Source: Arcobacter lacus
GTDB lineage: Bacteria; Campylobacterota; Campylobacteria; Campylobacterales; Arcobacteraceae
NCBI RefSeq assembly: GCF_003063295.1
Contig: NZ_MUXF01000010.1
Span: 62,001 to 126,000, forward strand
Direction: 5' to 3'
DNA: 64,000 bases
This document shows, piece after piece, positions 7,356 to 16,661 of this stretch. Under the pieces are notes generated by a model. The model was not told where the DNA came from, ran no database searches, and worked only from the letters and a program-made list of their open reading frames with translations. Each line of letters begins with the position of its first letter. Position 1 is the first letter of the stretch. The position numbers and the translations under genes are program-made.

Positions 7356-9689
7356 ATGAATTATATAAAAATATTAGGCTCAAGTGGAAGTAAATCAAAG
7401 AACTTAGGAACAACATCATTCCAAATATCAAAAGATATTATTATTGATACAGGAAATGTTATTAATATTTTAGGTGATAAATCTTCACTAATAAATCATA
7501 TATTTTTAACTCATTCACATTCTGACCACATAGTCGATTTACCTTTTTTATTAGATAGTTTTTTTGAAAACAGAAAAGAAACTCTTACTATTTATGCTTC
7601 AAAAGAAACGATTGAAGTTTTAAAAGAACATACTTTTAATGATAAAGTTTGGCCTGATTTTTCTAAAATAAATTTAATTGGAAGTGAAAAGAAATCCTTA
7701 GCTTTCAAGGAAATAAAAGAAAATGAAGAAACTATTATTGATAACTATAGAATAAAAGCTATAAATGCAATACATATTGAAGGTTCATTTGGATTTGTTA
7801 TTACAAAAGATGAAAAAGAGGCTTATATTATAAGTGGTGACACATATATAAATGAAAAAATAGTTGAGGAGATAAATTTAAATCAAAAAATAAAATTGTT
7901 GATTATTGAGTGTTCTTTTCCAAATAGAATGGAAAAACTTGCATTTGATAGTAAACATTTAACGCCAAATACATTAAAAGAGATGTTAAATAAAATAAAT
8001 AGAGATATTCAAATATTTATTTACCATATTAAACATTTATATTTAGAAGAGATAAAAACTCAATTAAATGAAATAAAAGTTTTTAAAAATGGTGGAAAAA
8101 TTTTAGAAGATGGAGATATTATTCATATAAATAGTGGGAAAATAGATTATGAATTATTGGACCATACAATATTTGAAAGAATTATGAATATAAATTTAGA
8201 ATTATCAAGTGAATTGGATAAAGATAAATTATACGAAATGATTTTAACTTTAACTAGAGAACTAACTCATAGTGATGGAGGAACTTTATATATAAAATCT
8301 GATGATAAAAAATATTTAGATTTTAAAATAGTTCAAAATGATAGTTTGAACATTTATTTGGGAGGAAAAGAGAAAATTTCTTGGAACTCTTTACCTTTAT
8401 ACTTGGAAGATGGAGAAGAAAATAAATCTATGGTTGCTGTTGTTTCTGCTTTAGAAAATAGAATTATTAATATTCCAGATGTTTATGAGTGCGAAAACTA
8501 TAACTTTGAAGGTACAAAAAACTTTGATAAGTCAACGGGGTATCGATCAAAATCGATGTTAGTTATTCCTTTAATAAACCATGAAAAAGATGTAATAGGA
8601 GTAATACAACTAATAAATAAAAATATAAATCAAACAGAAACAATTTCGTATAATGAATATGATGAAAAAATAATAAAAGCATTATCTTCTCAAGCTGCGA
8701 TGGCTTTAACAAATAGTCAATTAATACTTAGTTTAGAAAAGTTTTTAGAATCTTTTGTTTCTACAATAGCAAGTGCAATAGATGCAAAATCAAAACATAC
8801 TTTAAATCATATTACTAAAATGGCAAAATTAGCACCATTAATTGCACAATCAATCTCTTTAGATGAAACTGTTTATAACAATGTAAAATATTCAAAAAAC
8901 AATTTAAAAGAGATAGAATTAGCAGCAAAACTTCATGATATTGGTAAAATTTCAATGCCAGAATGGATTATTGATAAAGCTACAAAACTACAACATGTGG
9001 TTGATGGAATAGAAATAATCAAAGAGAGAATAGAAATTTTAAAAAGAGATTTTGAAATAGAATATCTAAAAAATATTATTACAAAAGAAGAATATGAAGT
9101 TAAGATTTCTAATTTAGAAGATGATTTTAGATTTATTGAAAAATCTAATATTGGTTCAGAATTTATGAAAAAAGAAGATTTGGAAAAAATTGAAAAAATA
9201 TCTTCATACAAATATTTAAAAAATGGTGAATTAATTTCTTTAATAAATGAAAGAGAAAAATATAATCTATCAATTCAAAAAGGTACTTTGACAAATGAAG
9301 AGAAAGATAAGATGAACTCTCATGCACAACTTTCTTATGATATGTTATCAGTCTTGCCTTTCCCTAAAAAATATGAAAATGTAATGCATATTGCTGTAAA
9401 TCATCATGAAAAATTAAATGGAAAAGGTTATCCAAGAGGATTAAGTGAAGAAGAGCTGGTTTTAGAAGATAGAATTATGATTTTAGCTGATATTTTTGAA
9501 GCTTTGACATCAAATGATAGACCATATAAAGAGACTAAAAAACTTTCAGAAGTATTTAGAATTTTGGATTTTATGGTAAAAGATGGAGAAATTGATGGAA
9601 AATTATTAGCTTTTTTTAAAGATAGTGAAGCTTTAAAAACTTATATAGATGAAGAGTTATTAAAAGAGCAAATAGATGATTTTAAATAA
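7356..9689 (+). CDS. Class II cAMP phosphodiesterase-like / GAF / HD-GYP fusion
   Basis: A 777-residue cytosolic protein with three parts. Residues 1-265 form a metallo-beta-lactamase fold with H53-S-H55-S-D57-H58; the WPDF segment, the HLTP segment and the late FIYHIKH resemble class II cAMP phosphodiesterases. Residues about 285-455 are a GAF domain (ITKEL-type start, MLVIPLIN and IGVIQLINK strands). Residues 480-770 are an HD-GYP phosphodiesterase with HDIGK (H527, D528), HHE (683-685) and GYP (691-693), the family that hydrolyses c-di-GMP. About 100 helical, charged residues are inserted between the first HD-GYP helices and the later conserved His, which is unusual. The gene overlaps the cyclase gene by 14 bases. 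The metal ligands look intact in both catalytic domains. Confidence 0.88.
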   Translation: MNYIKILGSSGSKSKNLGTTSFQISKDIIIDTGNVINILGDKSSLINHIFLTHSHSDHIVDLPFLLDSFFENRKETLTIYASKETIEVLKEHTFNDKVWPDFSKINLIGSEKKSLAFKEIKENEETIIDNYRIKAINAIHIEGSFGFVITKDEKEAYIISGDTYINEKIVEEINLNQKIKLLIIECSFPNRMEKLAFDSKHLTPNTLKEMLNKINRDIQIFIYHIKHLYLEEIKTQLNEIKVFKNGGKILEDGDIIHINSGKIDYELLDHTIFERIMNINLELSSELDKDKLYEMILTLTRELTHSDGGTLYIKSDDKKYLDFKIVQNDSLNIYLGGKEKISWNSLPLYLEDGEENKSMVAVVSALENRIINIPDVYECENYNFEGTKNFDKSTGYRSKSMLVIPLINHEKDVIGVIQLINKNINQTETISYNEYDEKIIKALSSQAAMALTNSQLILSLEKFLESFVSTIASAIDAKSKHTLNHITKMAKLAPLIAQSISLDETVYNNVKYSKNNLKEIELAAKLHDIGKISMPEWIIDKATKLQHVVDGIEIIKERIEILKRDFEIEYLKNIITKEEYEVKISNLEDDFRFIEKSNIGSEFMKKEDLEKIEKISSYKYLKNGELISLINEREKYNLSIQKGTLTNEEKDKMNSHAQLSYDMLSVLPFPKKYENVMHIAVNHHEKLNGKGYPRGLSEEELVLEDRIMILADIFEALTSNDRPYKETKKLSEVFRILDFMVKDGEIDGKLLAFFKDSEALKTYIDEELLKEQIDDFK

Positions 9690-11847
9690 AAAAATAAAAA
9701 AGTTTTCAATATATTTTACTTTATCTTTATCTTTATCACTGTTTCTTTCAGCTTTTTATATATTTTTCCCTGCCTTGCCTGATTCTTTAGATAATAGATT
9801 AAGAGATTATTTATTTACAATTAGAGGAGAACTTCCTAATAATGAAAATATAGTTATAGTTGATATCGATGAAGATTCGATTAAAAATTTAGGACAATGG
9901 CCTTGGAGTAGGGATAAACTAGCCAAAATCTTAGAAAATTTAACTTTAGCTAATGTTGGAATAGTTGGATTTGATATTGTTTTTGCAGAAGAAGATAGAA
10001 CTTCTCCACATAAAATTTTACAAGATTTAAAAATTGTAAAAAAAGATGCTTCTAATTATGATTTGGAGTTTGCAAATGCAGTTGAGAATTCGCCAGTTAT
10101 CTTAGGTTATCAGTTTGATTTAGTAAAAAAAGATAATTCAAATGTTAAAGTTCCTCAAATTCCAGCAATATTTATAGAAAAAGACAAACCTCAAGATAAA
10201 AACTATTTAATAGAAGCTTATAATACTATTTTAAATATACCTCAAATTCAAAATAAAGGTTACTCAAGCGGTTTTTTCAATAATATTCCAGATGATACAG
10301 GAATTATAAGAAGTGTTCCATTGATTATTTCATATGATGAAAATATTTATCCTTCTTTAGCTTTGGAAGTTATTAGAGTTATAAACAATGTACAAAAAGT
10401 TGTAGTTCAATATGATGAAAATGGAATATCAAATATTGTTTTGGATGATATTTCAATCCCAACTGATAGATATGGAAGAATGTTAATAAACTTTAGAGGT
10501 GCTGAAAGAAGTTTTAAATATATTAGTGCAGTTGATGTTTATAATAATAGTTTTGATAAAAATGATATAGATGGAAAAATTGTGCTTATAGGAACTAGTG
10601 CAGCTGGACTTTTTGATTTAAGAGCAACCCCATTTGATTCTATTTTTCCTGGAGTTGAAGTTCATGCAAATATAATAGATAATATTTTAATGCAAGATTT
10701 TATTTATAAAGCATCATGGCTTGATGGTACAAATATTTTAATAATATTTATTTTATCTTTTATAGTAGTAATGTTTACAACTTATACTGCTTTTTGGGCA
10801 AATCCTGTAATTTTTGTCTCTTTTACTATAAGTTATCTTTTTTTAGTTTATAACTTATTATTTGACTATGGAATTGTTTTAAATATACTTTTTCCTATAG
10901 CTACAGTTTTAATTGCATCTATTATGACTACTTTATTTGATTATTTTTATAATATAAAAAAAGAAGAGGCTATAAAAGCAAAATTTGCCTCAAAAGTTTC
11001 AAAAAATGTTATGGATGATATTTTAAAAAATATTGATAAAAATGAGTTTAGTGCAAAAAGTAAAGAAGTAACAATATTTTTTAGTGATATTAGAGGATTT
11101 ACAAATATTTCGGAAAAACTTGATGCAAAAGAGTTAATAAGTTTTTTAAATAGATATATGCAACCTATGAGTGAAATTATTATCAAATATCAAGGAACTA
11201 TTGATAAATTTATTGGTGATGCCATTATGGCTTATTGGAATGCTCCAATTGATATAAAAAATCATTGTGATTTAGCTTTAAAAGCAAGTCTTGAACAACT
11301 TGAAGTATTAGAAAAGTTAAATGTTGAACTTCAAAAAGAGAATTTACCAAAAATAGATATAGGAATAGGTCTAAATACAGGAACTGTTATCGTTGGTGAA
11401 ATGGGAAGTAGTTTAAGAAGTGATTATACAGTTATAGGAGATACAATAAATCTTGGTTCAAGAGTTGAATCTTTATGTAAATATTATGATTCTAAGTTAA
11501 ATATTTCAAACTTTACGAAAGATAAATTACAAGAAAAATATATATTTAGATTTTTAGATTTGGTAAAAGTAAAAGGAAAAAATGAACCAGTTGAAATCTG
11601 GCAAGTTTTAGGAAAAGGTGAAGCAAAAGAAAGTTTAAAAGAAGAGTTAGACTTATATCATAAAGCAATAGAGTTTTACAAAAATAGTGATTTTATAAAT
11701 GCATTAGAAATATTTGAAAGTTTAGAAAACAATGAAAATAAAACAAATAAAAATATTTATAAGATTTATATAACTAGATGTAAAGAGTTTATAAAAACAC
11801 CACCAAAGAATTTTGATGGTGTTTATGAGCATACAACAAAAGCTTAG
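9676..11847 (+). CDS. CHASE2-containing adenylate cyclase (class III)
   Basis: A 723-residue inner-membrane enzyme. After an N-terminal membrane segment (12-32), a periplasmic CHASE2 sensor domain (35-345) carries the typical IVIVDIDEDSIKNLGQWPW and GVEVHANIIDN segments. Three membrane helices (350-440) lead to a class III cyclase domain (462-640). The metal-binding Asp471 (FFSDIRGF) and Asp515 (KFIGDAIMAYW) are present, and the pair Lys512 with Asp583 (SDYTVIGDTINL) predicts ATP rather than GTP as substrate. A short TPR-like tail follows. It starts inside the end of the phosphodiesterase gene, so the two are translationally coupled. Its stop overlaps the convergent barrel-protein gene by four bases. 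Confidence 0.93.
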   Translation: MILNKKIKKFSIYFTLSLSLSLFLSAFYIFFPALPDSLDNRLRDYLFTIRGELPNNENIVIVDIDEDSIKNLGQWPWSRDKLAKILENLTLANVGIVGFDIVFAEEDRTSPHKILQDLKIVKKDASNYDLEFANAVENSPVILGYQFDLVKKDNSNVKVPQIPAIFIEKDKPQDKNYLIEAYNTILNIPQIQNKGYSSGFFNNIPDDTGIIRSVPLIISYDENIYPSLALEVIRVINNVQKVVVQYDENGISNIVLDDISIPTDRYGRMLINFRGAERSFKYISAVDVYNNSFDKNDIDGKIVLIGTSAAGLFDLRATPFDSIFPGVEVHANIIDNILMQDFIYKASWLDGTNILIIFILSFIVVMFTTYTAFWANPVIFVSFTISYLFLVYNLLFDYGIVLNILFPIATVLIASIMTTLFDYFYNIKKEEAIKAKFASKVSKNVMDDILKNIDKNEFSAKSKEVTIFFSDIRGFTNISEKLDAKELISFLNRYMQPMSEIIIKYQGTIDKFIGDAIMAYWNAPIDIKNHCDLALKASLEQLEVLEKLNVELQKENLPKIDIGIGLNTGTVIVGEMGSSLRSDYTVIGDTINLGSRVESLCKYYDSKLNISNFTKDKLQEKYIFRFLDLVKVKGKNEPVEIWQVLGKGEAKESLKEELDLYHKAIEFYKNSDFINALEIFESLENNENKTNKNIYKIYITRCKEFIKTPPKNFDGVYEHTTKA

Positions 11848-13157
11848 AAAGAGTAGTAAATATTTGATTTTACTACATATTTATCATATTCATAGATATT
11901 TTGATTAGAGTCATTATTTATATATCTAAAAGTTGCTCCTAAAGAGAGATTTTTATTTATAGATTGAATAACTCCTAAATCATAAATAACTTTGTCATTT
12001 TTTCTTTTGTTTCCATATAAAAACTCTTCATTTTCTTTATAAATATCTTTATATAGTTCAATGCCATTTGTTAAGATTGTACTTTTTGTAAGTGGATACA
12101 TATTTTCATATCTTAAACTTGCAAAGTCATAATCCACATTATAGTGGCTTCCTTTATCTTTATTATCTGTTCCAAATGTAAAACTAAATGTATTTATTCC
12201 AAAATCTTGTGTTAAGAATGCAAGACTATTTTGTAATTCATAATATGTTGAATCTCTAAATTCATATTGCGTTTGTTTAAAATCTTTTTTGATTAATTTT
12301 AGTTTAGTTTTATACATCAAATTTGCATCAATTTGATAGTCAAATGATGGAGTTAGAATATAATTATTCAAATAAGTGCTATTGTCTAACCAAACATAAT
12401 TATAATCAAATGCTAAAGATAGTTTCGATTTTTGCGTATAGTAAGACAATCCAGTTCCAAAAACAGTAAGACTTAAATCATTATCATATTCGTTGTTATA
12501 TTTTTGAATATAACCAACAAATCTATTATCAATAGTTAAATCATCTTTTAGTTTGTATGTATGATTTAAAGCAAGAATATACTCTGTAACGTGATCACTT
12601 TTTTTATCTTCTATACTTAAAGGAATATTTCCCCAATATGCATAATCATCACTTGAATTATTATCTACATTTGAGTCAAATCCATATCCAAAACCTAAAG
12701 TTGTTTTTATAAAATTTTTTTGAGATTTTTTGTCAAGTGAATTTAAAGTAAATTCGATATTTTTTCTAACATTTTGGGGTAAATCAGGCTCTTTTAAAAC
12801 CTCTTCATATAAAGCTTTTGCTTCATCGTATTGTTTTAGTTGAAAATATGTTTGAGCAAGTTCTAGTTTTACTCTATTGTTATTTGGATTCTCTTTTAAC
12901 ATACTTTTGTATAAATTTAAAGCTTCACTAAATTTACCTATTTCATAAGCGCTTCTTGCAAGCATAAAAGTTGTATCAGATGATAATTTATTTTCTTTTG
13001 TATATTGTTGAAGAAGGATATAACTATCTTGAAATAATCTATTTTGATAACTCTCAATAGCCTTTTGAAAATGCTCATTTGAGTAATTCTCATTTGCTAA
13101 AACTGAAGTTAAAGAAACAGTACTTAAAATGAAAGATGATAATAATTTTTTATTCAT
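11844..13157 (-). CDS. TPR plus outer-membrane barrel protein, Slam-like
   Basis: 437 residues: a Sec signal peptide (about 1-21, ending SVLAN), TPR helices from 25 to 150 (GKFSEALNLYKSMLKENPNN, then QLKQYDEAKALYEEVL), and about 280 residues of alternating beta strands ending in aromatic YYSF, as in outer-membrane barrels. TPR followed by a 14-strand-sized barrel is the architecture of Slam proteins (DUF560, type XI secretion), which move TbpB-like lipoproteins or haemophores across the outer membrane. I chose the ATG with AAGG before it rather than an in-frame TTG ten codons upstream. It follows the FecR-domain gene by four bases. A generic TPR-porin is the alternative. Confidence 0.72.
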   Translation of the reverse strand: MNKKLLSSFILSTVSLTSVLANENYSNEHFQKAIESYQNRLFQDSYILLQQYTKENKLSSDTTFMLARSAYEIGKFSEALNLYKSMLKENPNNNRVKLELAQTYFQLKQYDEAKALYEEVLKEPDLPQNVRKNIEFTLNSLDKKSQKNFIKTTLGFGYGFDSNVDNNSSDDYAYWGNIPLSIEDKKSDHVTEYILALNHTYKLKDDLTIDNRFVGYIQKYNNEYDNDLSLTVFGTGLSYYTQKSKLSLAFDYNYVWLDNSTYLNNYILTPSFDYQIDANLMYKTKLKLIKKDFKQTQYEFRDSTYYELQNSLAFLTQDFGINTFSFTFGTDNKDKGSHYNVDYDFASLRYENMYPLTKSTILTNGIELYKDIYKENEEFLYGNKRKNDKVIYDLGVIQSINKNLSLGATFRYINNDSNQNIYEYDKYVVKSNIYYSF

Positions 13158-13161
13158 AGTT

Positions 13162-14331
13162 TTACCTTGTTGCTGAGAATGTTCCACTTAGTGATGAAAC
13201 ACCTGGATCTTGCATATTTATAGTACCACTTACACTACTAATGTTTTGACCATAAAATTTCCCATTTATGTAGCTATCACTATAATCTGAAGCCGAAAAT
13301 CCATCTTTATCTATAGTGCTAGTGAAAAAAGTACCGCTATAATTTCTTAATTGGTTCGTACTAAAAGTATAATTTCCATCTATATAATTACTACCTCCTC
13401 CCAAATAAATATTAAGAAAAATAGAGTTACTTACAATAGTTTCCCCTGGATTTAAGTTTGTCGAAGAGATTGTTCCTGAAAAAGATAGTTGAGTAGAATT
13501 TGCTGCATCTATTAAACTTTGAACATAAGAAGGATCAGTTACACTGAGTACACTATTATTAGTTGCATCTTGAATCGAATTATTTAAAGCTGCATTATTC
13601 TTTTCATCTAGCAAAGCTTGTAAATCTTCATTCCAATCTCCCCAAGAGTTTTGATTATCAACATTTTCTTGATTATTTAAACCTGGATTTTCTAAGGCTA
13701 AAGGAGAACTTGGATTGTTATTGAAGTTATTAGTATTAGAATTATTATTTTGATTATTTACATTTAATCTTTCATCTATATCATTTAAAGTATCATTTTG
13801 AAGAGGTAAAGCAACAGATGGTCTTTGATTTGCAAATATATTTATATAATTTCCAGCAGGAACATCTACTGAAATACCATTTGAAAGAACAACGATTCTT
13901 CCTTGTGTACAAACTATTCTATTTTCATCACCATAAAATTCAGTTCCTCTAATACCAATTGAAGCAGATTTTGTTTTTAGTTTAAATTTATCTGGATTAA
14001 CTTTTCCAATTTGTCCAGTTATTGTATGGAAAGCTCCTTTTAAGACATTTAATTCTGTTTTAGCTTCTTTTGAGTTAAATATATACTCTTCTATATTTAA
14101 ACTAGACTCTTTTCCTATAGTAACAATAGTGTTGTCAATAAAAGTAATTTTTATTTTTGAGTTTACTTGAGTAGAAATAATATCTTTATTCTCTACTTTA
14201 TCACCCATATTTGCATTAAGAGTTTGTCCATTCCTTAGAATAGTAGCTTTCCCTTCAACTAAAGAAACTGTTCCTACATTTGCAAATAAAAAAGAAGCAA
14301 ATAAAAGCAGTAATGTAAATATTTTTAGCAT
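13162..14331 (-). CDS. Secreted FecR-domain protein with TbpB-like C-terminus
   Basis: 389 residues with a cleavable signal peptide (1-17, no lipobox Cys). Residues 25-165 are a FecR-type beta domain (VSLVEGKATILRNG, DNTIVTIGKESSLNI, KTKSASIGIRGTEF), but there is no DUF4880 or membrane helix, so it is not an anti-sigma factor. An Asn-rich linker (about 185-225) leads to a Ser/Gly/Thr-rich beta region ending with GKFYG (357-361), SSVSGTI and a final SGTFSATR. FxYG, a Gly/Ser-rich strand and a terminal G-x-F-x-A-x-R is the ending seen in TbpB-type barrels (TbpB_B_D) carried by Slam substrates. A Slam-like gene follows at once. The FecR domain is certain; the TbpB-like end is pattern recognition. 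Confidence 0.75.
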   Translation of the reverse strand: MLKIFTLLLLFASFLFANVGTVSLVEGKATILRNGQTLNANMGDKVENKDIISTQVNSKIKITFIDNTIVTIGKESSLNIEEYIFNSKEAKTELNVLKGAFHTITGQIGKVNPDKFKLKTKSASIGIRGTEFYGDENRIVCTQGRIVVLSNGISVDVPAGNYINIFANQRPSVALPLQNDTLNDIDERLNVNNQNNNSNTNNFNNNPSSPLALENPGLNNQENVDNQNSWGDWNEDLQALLDEKNNAALNNSIQDATNNSVLSVTDPSYVQSLIDAANSTQLSFSGTISSTNLNPGETIVSNSIFLNIYLGGGSNYIDGNYTFSTNQLRNYSGTFFTSTIDKDGFSASDYSDSYINGKFYGQNISSVSGTINMQDPGVSSLSGTFSATR

Positions 14332-14352
14332 GATTTTCCCTTGTGCTTTTTA

Positions 14353-14367
14353 TAATAATAATAATAA
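14353..14367. repeat. Five TAA trinucleotide repeats
   Basis: A (TAA)5 tract lies about 20 bases upstream of the FecR-domain gene in the 185-base divergent promoter region. The surrounding DNA is nearly all A/T. Length variation here would change promoter spacing, but the tract is short and nothing shows that it varies. Confidence 0.6.
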
Positions 14368-14469
14368 AAGATATTTATAATAATATCAAAATAATTTTTT
14401 TATAATCTTAAAATATTATTAAATAGGTAAAAAATTATTTTTCTTATTAAATTGTAATCGACTTTAGGC

Positions 14470-14475
14470 TATAAT
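14470..14475 (+). promoter_or_regulatory. -10 box of the acyltransferase gene
   Basis: TATAAT 41 bases before the acyltransferase start, preceded by AT-rich DNA. A GGGAGG Shine-Dalgarno (near 14500) lies upstream of the ATG. Confidence 0.6.
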
Positions 14476-14516
14476 CCGCCGATTTTAAAAAAAACAATAG
14501 GGAGGTTGCATAACTT

Positions 14517-15704
14517 ATGGGTCCAATTACTCTTACAGATGATACGATATTATCTACAAATATAGTTATTGCAGTTGTATTACTAGTTTTATTTCTTACT
14601 TTTAAGAAATCTCAACATACAGATGTTTTTCCAATATCAGTTACAAATGAGTTAAAAGGTTTAGGAATATTAACAGTTGTATTTGCACACTTTGCATATA
14701 TGAAAGTTACAAATGCTGACTTTTTATTTCCATTGTCAATTATAGCTGGAGTTGGAGTTGATCTATTCTTATTTATGTCAGGATATGGACTAAGTGTTGG
14801 AATGCTTAAAAGACCTATGAAAACTCTTGATTTTTATAAAAAAAGAGTAATAAAAATCTTTATTCCATTTTGGGTAGCTTTAATCATCATTTTTGCAGCA
14901 GATGCAATATTTTTAAAAGAGTATTATATGGCTACATCTTTAACTACAACAGGTGAAGGTGGTTCAATTGCTCTTTATATATTTAGATCAATGTTAGGAT
15001 TTTTCCCAACTGCATTAGGTTTTGGAGATGTTAACTCACCATTTTGGTATATTACATGGATGATAATGTTTTATTTATTATTTCCAATCGTATTTTTCAA
15101 AGAGAAACCATGGTTGACAGCTCTTATATTAGCTGTTATTGCAACAATTATTGGAACATTTAATCCTGGAGATTTAGGAGATAATTGGCTTCATAGATTA
15201 CACACTTTAGCGTTTCCTATGGGAATAATCGCTGCTTGGTTACTTCAAGTAAAAGAGGGTGAAGAAAACAAGTTTGTTACTTTTATAAAAGAGTTTAGAC
15301 TAAAAAAAGTTGGATTAGTAAGATATTTAATCATTGCTTTAATGTTTGTAGTTGTTTATTATGTATCACTACATACAACAGCAAATTCTTGGCCAACACT
15401 AAGTGCAATTTTTGTAAAAGGTTTCTATGTTGAACAATTAATGTCTTTAGTTATTATGATGGCATTTATTGTGATTTTTGTACTTAAAAAAGTTGATAAT
15501 AAATTTTTAGCAATTTATGGAGTTTATTCTTACGAAGTATATTTAATCCACTGGCCTTTAATTGGAAGATATGATTTCTTCTTTGACTATTTACCATCTT
15601 GGGCTGCTGTTATTTGTTGGTTAGTTGCATTTATTTTAGTAAGTATGTTATTAAATAAAATTGTTAAACCAATCAGCGCTTGGGTTGATAAAATAGCAAA
15701 ATAA
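14517..15704 (+). CDS. Acyltransferase family 3 membrane protein
   Basis: 395 residues with about ten membrane helices. The family signature appears early: ELKGLGILTVVFAHF contains the conserved His on the first core helix, and GVGVDLFLFMSGYGL matches the F-x-F-x-x-S-G motif. The C-terminus carries the usual EVYLIHWPL. Members O-acetylate or succinylate surface glycans, LPS or peptidoglycan. No glycan-synthesis genes adjoin, so the substrate cannot be named. It is a single-gene unit with its own promoter and a clear terminator after it. Confidence 0.9.
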   Translation: MGPITLTDDTILSTNIVIAVVLLVLFLTFKKSQHTDVFPISVTNELKGLGILTVVFAHFAYMKVTNADFLFPLSIIAGVGVDLFLFMSGYGLSVGMLKRPMKTLDFYKKRVIKIFIPFWVALIIIFAADAIFLKEYYMATSLTTTGEGGSIALYIFRSMLGFFPTALGFGDVNSPFWYITWMIMFYLLFPIVFFKEKPWLTALILAVIATIIGTFNPGDLGDNWLHRLHTLAFPMGIIAAWLLQVKEGEENKFVTFIKEFRLKKVGLVRYLIIALMFVVVYYVSLHTTANSWPTLSAIFVKGFYVEQLMSLVIMMAFIVIFVLKKVDNKFLAIYGVYSYEVYLIHWPLIGRYDFFFDYLPSWAAVICWLVAFILVSMLLNKIVKPISAWVDKIAK

Positions 15705-15710
15705 TCTTTT

Positions 15711-15738
15711 AAAAGTAAGCTTTTAAGCTTACTTTTTT
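15711..15738 (+). terminator. Rho-independent terminator after the acyltransferase gene
   Basis: The arms AAAAGTAAGC and GCTTACTTTT pair around a TTTTAA loop and the right arm runs into seven T residues. The next gene begins just downstream. Confidence 0.8.
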
Positions 15739-15746
15739 TATAACAT

Positions 15747-16661
15747 ATGAAAATAGAAAACTTAAAAAAACTTATACAAAATAATCTCGAAAATAAAACA
15801 TTTGAAATCAAAAGAGTTTTTCACGGACGTGGCAATTTTTACGAAGATTTTAATTATTTAACAGTTGATAGTTTAAATGAGATTTTATTTGCTACCTTTT
15901 TTGAAGAAAGTAGCGATGAAAATGAAATCATAAAAGCTTTAAAAGATATTGCAAATGCTTATAACTATAAAACATTTATTGTGCAAAAAAAATATAAAAA
16001 AGATGAATTAAATGAAGCTATTATTGGAGAAATTCCTCCTTTTTATATCGTGGTTGAGAATGGTTTAAAATATAAAATTAACTTTTTTAACAAAAATATC
16101 GGAATTTTTTTAGATATGAAAATAGGGCGTGAATATATAAGTTCTATTTGTAATGATAAAAATATTCTAAATCTTTTTTCTTATACTTGTGCCTTTTGTG
16201 TCGTTGCAATAAATGCAAAAGCAAAACAAGTTGTAAATGTAGATATGGCAAAAGGTGCTTTAACAACTGGAAGAGAAAATCATCATCTAAATAACCTTGA
16301 TACTAAAAAAGTAAAATTTATGCCTTATGATATTTTAAAATCATGGAATAGAATAAAAAAAGAAGGACCTTATGATATTATCATAATTGATCCTCCATCT
16401 TTTCAAAAAGGAAGTTTTGCAGCAACAAAAGATTATGAAAAAATCATAAAAAAACTTCCTGAACTTGCAAGCGAAAACTGTATAGTTTTATCGTGTTTAA
16501 ATGCTCCTGAACTTGATAGTGATTTTATAAAACAGAAATTTGAAGAGTTTGCTCCTACTTTTAAATTTGAAAAAAGACTAGAAAATTTAAAAGAATTTAT
16601 CACAAATAATGAAGAAAAATCATTAAAGAATCTTATATTTAAAAAACAGAACTCTAATTAA
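15747..16661 (+). CDS. RlmI/RlmK-like SAM-dependent methyltransferase
   Basis: 304 residues. The N-terminal part (about 1-110) is a small RNA-binding-type domain, and the rest is a Rossmann methyltransferase. NLFSYTCAF is the motif I region, VNVDMAKGAL the SAM-ribose acidic strand, and IIDPPSFQKG motif IV, in the DPPSF form typical of the 23S rRNA methyltransferases RlmI/RlmK. LSCLNAPEL places a Cys at motif VI. It lacks the N-terminal PUA domain of E. coli RlmI. The likely role is rRNA base methylation in the cytosol; the exact base cannot be told from sequence. Confidence 0.82.
   Translation: MKIENLKKLIQNNLENKTFEIKRVFHGRGNFYEDFNYLTVDSLNEILFATFFEESSDENEIIKALKDIANAYNYKTFIVQKKYKKDELNEAIIGEIPPFYIVVENGLKYKINFFNKNIGIFLDMKIGREYISSICNDKNILNLFSYTCAFCVVAINAKAKQVVNVDMAKGALTTGRENHHLNNLDTKKVKFMPYDILKSWNRIKKEGPYDIIIIDPPSFQKGSFAATKDYEKIIKKLPELASENCIVLSCLNAPELDSDFIKQKFEEFAPTFKFEKRLENLKEFITNNEEKSLKNLIFKKQNSN

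Follow-up and report, generated by a model that had tools for sequence, protein, structure and literature searches.

A candidate type XI secretion unit of a FecR-domain cargo and a Slam-type pore within a cyclic AMP signalling cluster of Arcobacter lacus

What might a protein with a FecR domain do when it ends in a TbpB-like barrel and its gene lies beside that of an outer-membrane pore? This question is raised by a gene pair in a stretch of 64,000 nucleotides from Arcobacter lacus (contig NZ_MUXF01000010.1, positions 62,001 to 126,000; hereafter the window). A preliminary description of this DNA had proposed that the pair consists of a Slam-type translocon and a new type XI secretion system (T11SS) cargo, perhaps a sensor, an adhesin or a glycan binder. 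Both genes proved to be real, located on the minus strand 4 nucleotides apart, and their pairing recurs in relatives. On balance, the evidence leans towards a type XI (Slam-type) secretion unit that is built into a cyclic AMP (cAMP) signalling cluster and displays a two-sided cargo signalling to a CHASE2 sensor.

The first gene, here called the cargo gene, encodes the parts that the preliminary description had listed. The N-terminus is hydrophobic (MLKIFTLLLLFASFLFA-N) and was assigned by eye from the sequence as a Sec-type signal peptide, and it is followed by a FecR domain (PF04773, residues 51-144, 50.5 bits vs a cut-off of 24), an Asn-rich linker and a C-terminal end reading GKFYG...SGTFSATR. 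In the structural model (predicted local distance difference test, pLDDT, 82), the FecR N-domain is joined by a disordered linker at residues 193-260 to a helix and eight strands at 267-388. The N-domain fold matches PupR (Z 15.8) and the anchoring domain of an adhesin, 5ix9 (Z 11.0). In known T11SS cargos, a handle or pedestal domain precedes the barrel (PMC12282271); no handle is visible ahead of the barrel in the cargo model, where region 193-260 has a pLDDT below 50. A role as a FecR anti-sigma factor was rejected, as the signal peptide stands directly ahead of FecR without a cytoplasmic domain, and no sigma factor or receptor adjoins the gene, the neighbours being the pore gene, a cyclase gene and an acyltransferase-like gene.

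Relatives of the cargo were gathered from 40 family regions, 20 order-level regions picked by the C-domain only, and 80 genome-collection loci representing the best 80 of 228 relatives, nearly all from Campylobacterota. Pooling these regions gave 90 distinct FecR and C-barrel proteins across Campylobacterota. The window cargo by itself has no PF01298 match and reaches only E=0.25 with the NCBI model slam_lipo, yet homology of the barrel is settled by the alignment with relatives. Among 33 aligned cargo relatives, all of which carry FecR, TbpB_B_D (PF01298) matches 12 (best 1.1e-12), slam_lipo 13 (best 3.9e-15) and FHBP_C 3. A profile covering the C-terminal 132 residues, searched against all PDB sequences, matched TbpB (1.7e-12), NHBA (3.6e-11), LbpB and HpuA (0.0027), and hemophilin weakly (0.18). 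By fold, NHBA is closest (Z 13.4, root-mean-square deviation 2.6 over 113 residues), and further matches include fHbp (Z 13.3), HphA (11.5), LbpB (11.1) and TbpB (10.8). The barrel ends 13 residues or fewer from the C-terminus in 90/90 relatives. The cargo C-terminus is an 8-strand barrel of the TbpB/NHBA/fHbp type, and the TbpB-like ending suggested earlier is hence upheld by both the profile of relatives and the model.

The second gene starts with an ATG at position 13157, 4 nucleotides past the cargo gene, and an alternative GTG 30 nucleotides upstream would extend the product to 447 amino acids. The product exceeds the Pfam cut-offs of TPR_Slam (PF24575, 36.0 bits vs 35.2) and SlipAM/DUF560 (PF04575, 24.2 bits vs 22, residues 153-427), the margins being narrow for this single protein. 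Of its relatives, 32/32 match TPR_Slam and 9/32 match SlipAM at E<=0.1. An AlphaFold2 model built from 46 sequences (pLDDT 91.7) displays TPR helices at residues 27-145 and exactly 14 long strands within 148-436, with a small additional hairpin at 172-181. The best solved-structure matches of the barrel are the 14-strand CymA (Z 23.1) and OmpG (Z 22.2); generic porins are listed among the fold matches of the pore, and no Slam structure is. While the fold matches are generic, the sequence cut-offs of TPR_Slam and SlipAM decide against a porin unrelated to DUF560. As judged from sequence and model, the second gene encodes a Slam/T11SS-type pore with the DUF560 layout that had been proposed for it, through which translocation would take place.

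The cargo and the pore are also linked genetically. As many as 80 of the 90 cargo genes directly adjoin a pore gene and share its strand, with a median gap of 9 nucleotides (54 downstream of the pore and 26 upstream), and since the pairing recurs in so many distinct relatives, it is not due to chance. The remaining 10 are second tandem cargos, lie at contig ends or are separated from the pore by one gene. Cargo length ranges from 366 to 2,991 amino acids, and this variation arises through the linker. The Slam/cargo pairing of the preliminary description is thereby supported by sequence, fold and linkage, and the pore most likely exports the FecR protein. In two relatives, other domains are found in the slot of FecR. 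A Pal-type peptidoglycan-binding lipoprotein carries a TbpB-type C-barrel, and its gene immediately precedes that of a Slam-like pore (L131:3394-4833); a VWA-domain protein of 1,165 amino acids ends in a TbpB-type barrel and adjoins a Slam-like pore (L141:6606-10103). The barrel is thus constant and the N-domain exchangeable, as in known T11SS cargo (PMC12282271).

Several loci display variations of the unit. Two cargo/pore pairs stand in tandem in L094:3050-17775, with cargos of 2,991 and 954 amino acids, and very large Ig-like/FG-GAP/Lcl_C proteins are encoded in the same direction between the FecR cargo and the pore in L159:7179-11345 and L163:7155-12383. In L093:6243-7058, the cargo frame stops after the linker (271 amino acids), right before an intact pore, which may reflect a frameshift, phase variation or an assembly error. 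The pore copies at G071:C1:29691-30818, G001:C1:1140369-1141597 and G093:C1:58951-61986 contain internal stops or give split matches, and the copy in G071 looks decayed.

The genes around the pair point to a signalling role rather than to a plain adhesin or glycan binder. They belong to a four-gene cAMP cluster of Campylobacterota described in 2022, for which a shared pathway was proposed (PMC9239204). Across 104 Arcobacteraceae genomes, FecR kin and CHASE2 occur together in 57, FecR alone in 1, CHASE2 alone in 2 and neither in 44, and in the genus of the window, 12 genomes carry both and 19 neither. The pore was found in 49 of the 104 genomes, and FecR is present in 49/49 of these. Fisher values are about 1e-25 and 1e-20, but as the genomes are related, they overstate independence. 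A clear nested pattern emerges, in which FecR-CHASE2 is the core and the pore and C-barrel are an addition; some of the FecR-CHASE2 pairs without a pore involve CHASE2-GGDEF proteins. For example, the FecR protein is paired with another kind of CHASE2 protein in L235:3681-6595 and L238:3888-6799, that of L235 being a CHASE2-GGDEF diguanylate cyclase. Beside the CHASE2 cyclase of L236:4474-5483, L237:4465-5327, L241:5816-6783 and L242:4875-5740, the FecR domain is seemingly split into two overlapping open reading frames; in L236, L237 and L241 the break falls right after a G(I/L)RG motif, and the second half has its own signal-peptide-like start. An apparent FecR-cyclase fusion in L192 was dismissed as an artefact, as a gap of N letters shifts the frame.

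How, then, may secretion and signalling be joined? In the favoured reading, the FecR protein would cross the inner membrane via Sec, and the Slam-like 14-strand pore would recognise the C-terminal TbpB/NHBA-type barrel and pass it unfolded to the surface. In published work, TbpB had to be unfolded to pass through Slam1, which was proposed to recognise a C-terminal motif (PMC9090332). Since the cargo is devoid of a lipid anchor and Slam transports chains only in the unfolded state, the FecR domain, being folded, is most likely retained in the periplasm, where it would anchor the protein in the outer membrane. The missing lipid anchor, the Slam-type barrel and the pairing of the N-domain with a periplasm-facing sensor all suggest a cargo straddling the outer membrane, a layout that also draws support from the Pal-barrel relative, with a peptidoglycan-binding domain in the slot of FecR. 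The periplasmic FecR domain could then contact the CHASE2 sensor of the adenylate cyclase encoded next to the pair. As a result, cAMP would change when the surface domain is bound or lost, and the neighbouring phosphodiesterase would reset the signal. More tentatively, and with somewhat less confidence than in the favoured reading, it could be speculated that the secretion system as a whole acts as a trans-envelope receptor, in which the state of the cargo (threaded, bound or lost) is sensed by the CHASE2 cyclase and a surface event is thereby converted into cAMP.

The cargo may instead be of the ordinary soluble T11SS kind, secreted in its entirety or held on the surface to bind a ligand or a surface, with the cAMP genes regulating it. 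A lipobox cysteine is lacking in the window cargo and present in 1 of the 90 relatives, so that the cargo resembles the soluble subclass of T11SS cargos (PMC8406197) and not the lipoprotein subclass; a Sec signal without a lipobox is likewise found in soluble TbpB-barrel cargos of the hemophilin type (PMC8406197). Long, variable linkers and adhesin-like genes in some clusters agree with this, and so does the fast change of the C-domain. Compared with six relatives from the genus, identity is 73-98% for the pore, 55-90% for the FecR domain and 34-72% for the C-domain. In the nearest pair (L081 vs window 7356-16661), synonymous divergence (dS) is 0.52 for the cargo vs 0.11-0.33 for its neighbours, a pattern suggestive of recombination or exchange at the cargo. 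A rapidly changing C-domain would fit exposure outside the cell, which the two-sided reading predicts as well. Still, FecR and CHASE2 co-occur almost perfectly even where pore and C-barrel are missing, which argues for a periplasmic role of FecR, and a Pal domain occupies the FecR slot in L131. A purely soluble cargo is therefore rather unlikely, though it deserves serious consideration.

A further alternative is a LapA-like retained adhesin without signalling, with the N-domain as a plug, release by a protease and a C-terminal part binding surfaces. Residues 16-109 of the cargo superpose on 5ix9, the adhesin anchoring domain (Z 11.0, root-mean-square deviation 2.0 over 74 residues; profile E=0.0043), retention modules of type I and type Vb secreted adhesins rest in the periplasm (PMC13090378), and LapG-family proteases are found in 85 of the 104 genomes. 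However, the likeness is general to FecR domains: NF033682, the LapA retention module, matches the cargo below its cut-off, and it matches other FecR proteins (L235, L238, L239, L193) equally well, down to 4.9e-9 and again below the cut-off. It was therefore set aside as special evidence, and it hints at common descent of the LapA retention module and the N-terminal half of FecR domains. Control by LapG was also rejected, as only 1 of 90 cargos has a LapG-type cleavage motif, [T/A/P]AAG, in its linker, and no LapG match was found in some cargo-bearing genomes (G045, G046, G050, G051). With the near-perfect FecR-CHASE2 co-occurrence added, a retained adhesin of this kind is very improbable.

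Several observations weigh against the two-sided secretion unit. In four relatives (L179, L193, L215 and L220), pore and FecR are kept together with a FecR protein that lacks the C-barrel, and no C-barrel was found elsewhere in these genomes. In addition, the distances among FecR domains follow those of the pore no less closely than the distances among C-domains, and tree correlation was for this reason dropped as proof of C-domain/pore pairing. A FecR gene beside a CHASE2 cyclase in Sinorhizobium is dispensable for signal perception (PMC5498481), a finding that favours the soluble cargo, and the retention-module match is common to FecR proteins without a T11SS. The four clusters and the tree distances would rather fit a pore that serves as outer-membrane signalling partner of FecR, loosely as in FecA-FecR, and not as a translocon, the C-barrel binding a ligand and staying in the periplasm or the barrel. 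The counts around pore genes agree, as FecR lies within two genes of 97 of 100 distinct pore genes, and a C-barrel gene is detectable in 82. Nevertheless, the pore scores above the SlipAM and TPR_Slam cut-offs, the C-barrel is homologous to known Slam cargos, and the pores of L131 and L141 stand beside C-barrel proteins without FecR, so that such a partnership appears improbable.

The coordinates of the pair and its conserved neighbours are collected in Table 1. Promoter scanning yielded no enrichment relative to shuffled sequences.

Table 1 Features of the cargo/pore locus, with positions counted from the first nucleotide of the window.
Feature	Positions	Strand	Basis
Cargo gene, 389 amino acids: signal peptide, FecR N-domain, linker and C-terminal barrel	13162..14331	-	
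Sec signal peptide without lipobox cysteine, residues 1-17	14281..14331	-	Judged by inspection
FecR N-domain, residues 19-190	13762..14277	-	PF04773 and fold matches
Asn-rich linker, residues 191-260, disordered in model	13552..13761	-	pLDDT <50 at 193-260
C-terminal 8-strand barrel, TbpB/NHBA kind, residues 262-389	13165..13548	-	Profile and fold
Predicted Slam/T11SS-type outer-membrane pore gene, 437 amino acids	11844..13157	-	Pfam cut-offs and model
Periplasmic TPR domain, residues 27-145	12723..13079	-	PF24575 and model
14-strand barrel, residues 148-437	11847..12716	-	PF04575 and model
CHASE2 adenylate cyclase, convergent, 4-nucleotide overlap with pore gene	9676..11847	+	PF05226, PF00211; conserved neighbour
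Metallo-beta-lactamase (class II cAMP phosphodiesterase-like), GAF and HD-domain protein	7356..9689	+	PF02112, PF01590, PF13487; conserved neighbour

Slam-like sequences have been seen in epsilonproteobacteria, which were excluded from the neighbourhood analysis, and the genus Campylobacter was reported to lack Slam (PMC5449769); the cargo/pore unit is nevertheless present in a genome of Campylobacter gastrosuis (L155 and, with a divergent end, L154). No paper joining FecR with Slam/DUF560 in substance was found among those searched. What appears to be new, as predicted from sequences and models, is the identification of the TPR protein as a Slam-type pore and of the FecR protein as its barrel-tailed cargo, along with the inclusion of a T11SS unit in the cAMP cluster. 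Type XI secretion would thereby gain a cargo class with a FecR domain and no lipid anchor, in a phylum omitted from the Slam neighbourhood survey. Two parts of a known cAMP cluster would gain a concrete identity, providing a testable answer to what these CHASE2 sensors read and suggesting that surface display of proteins and intracellular signalling are connected in a previously undescribed way. If the two-sided topology is true, it would represent a new route for Gram-negative signalling across the outer membrane.

The cluster described in PMC9239204 comprises the same genes, encoding a CHASE2 adenylate cyclase, a phosphodiesterase, a FecR protein and a TPR protein, yet the last two were labelled 'FecR outer membrane protein' and 'TPR protein', and their identity as T11SS cargo and pore went unnoticed. 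The type XI (DUF560/SlipAM) proteins Slam1/Slam2, NilB and HrpB likewise combine a TPR domain with a 14-strand barrel and have a TbpB-type barrel protein encoded next to them, but the pore of the window stands in a CHASE2/cAMP cluster rather than among iron or haem genes. The window cargo shares its C-terminal 8-strand barrel with NHBA, fHbp, TbpB and hemophilin, and NHBA (GNA2132), the nearest fold, likewise has a disordered N-terminal part ahead of a single barrel. Unlike NHBA, fHbp and TbpB, the cargo is unlipidated and carries a FecR domain in place of the ligand-binding handle. Retained adhesins of the LapA/MpIBP type have an anchoring domain, 5ix9, that fits the N-domain of the cargo, whereas the exporter is different and the cargo lacks a LapG site. 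Finally, a LysM-FecR protein is paired with a CHASE2 histidine kinase in Burkholderia (PMC5192318), which places FecR beside a CHASE2 sensor as in the window, though with LysM rather than a C-barrel, a kinase rather than a cyclase, and no pore.

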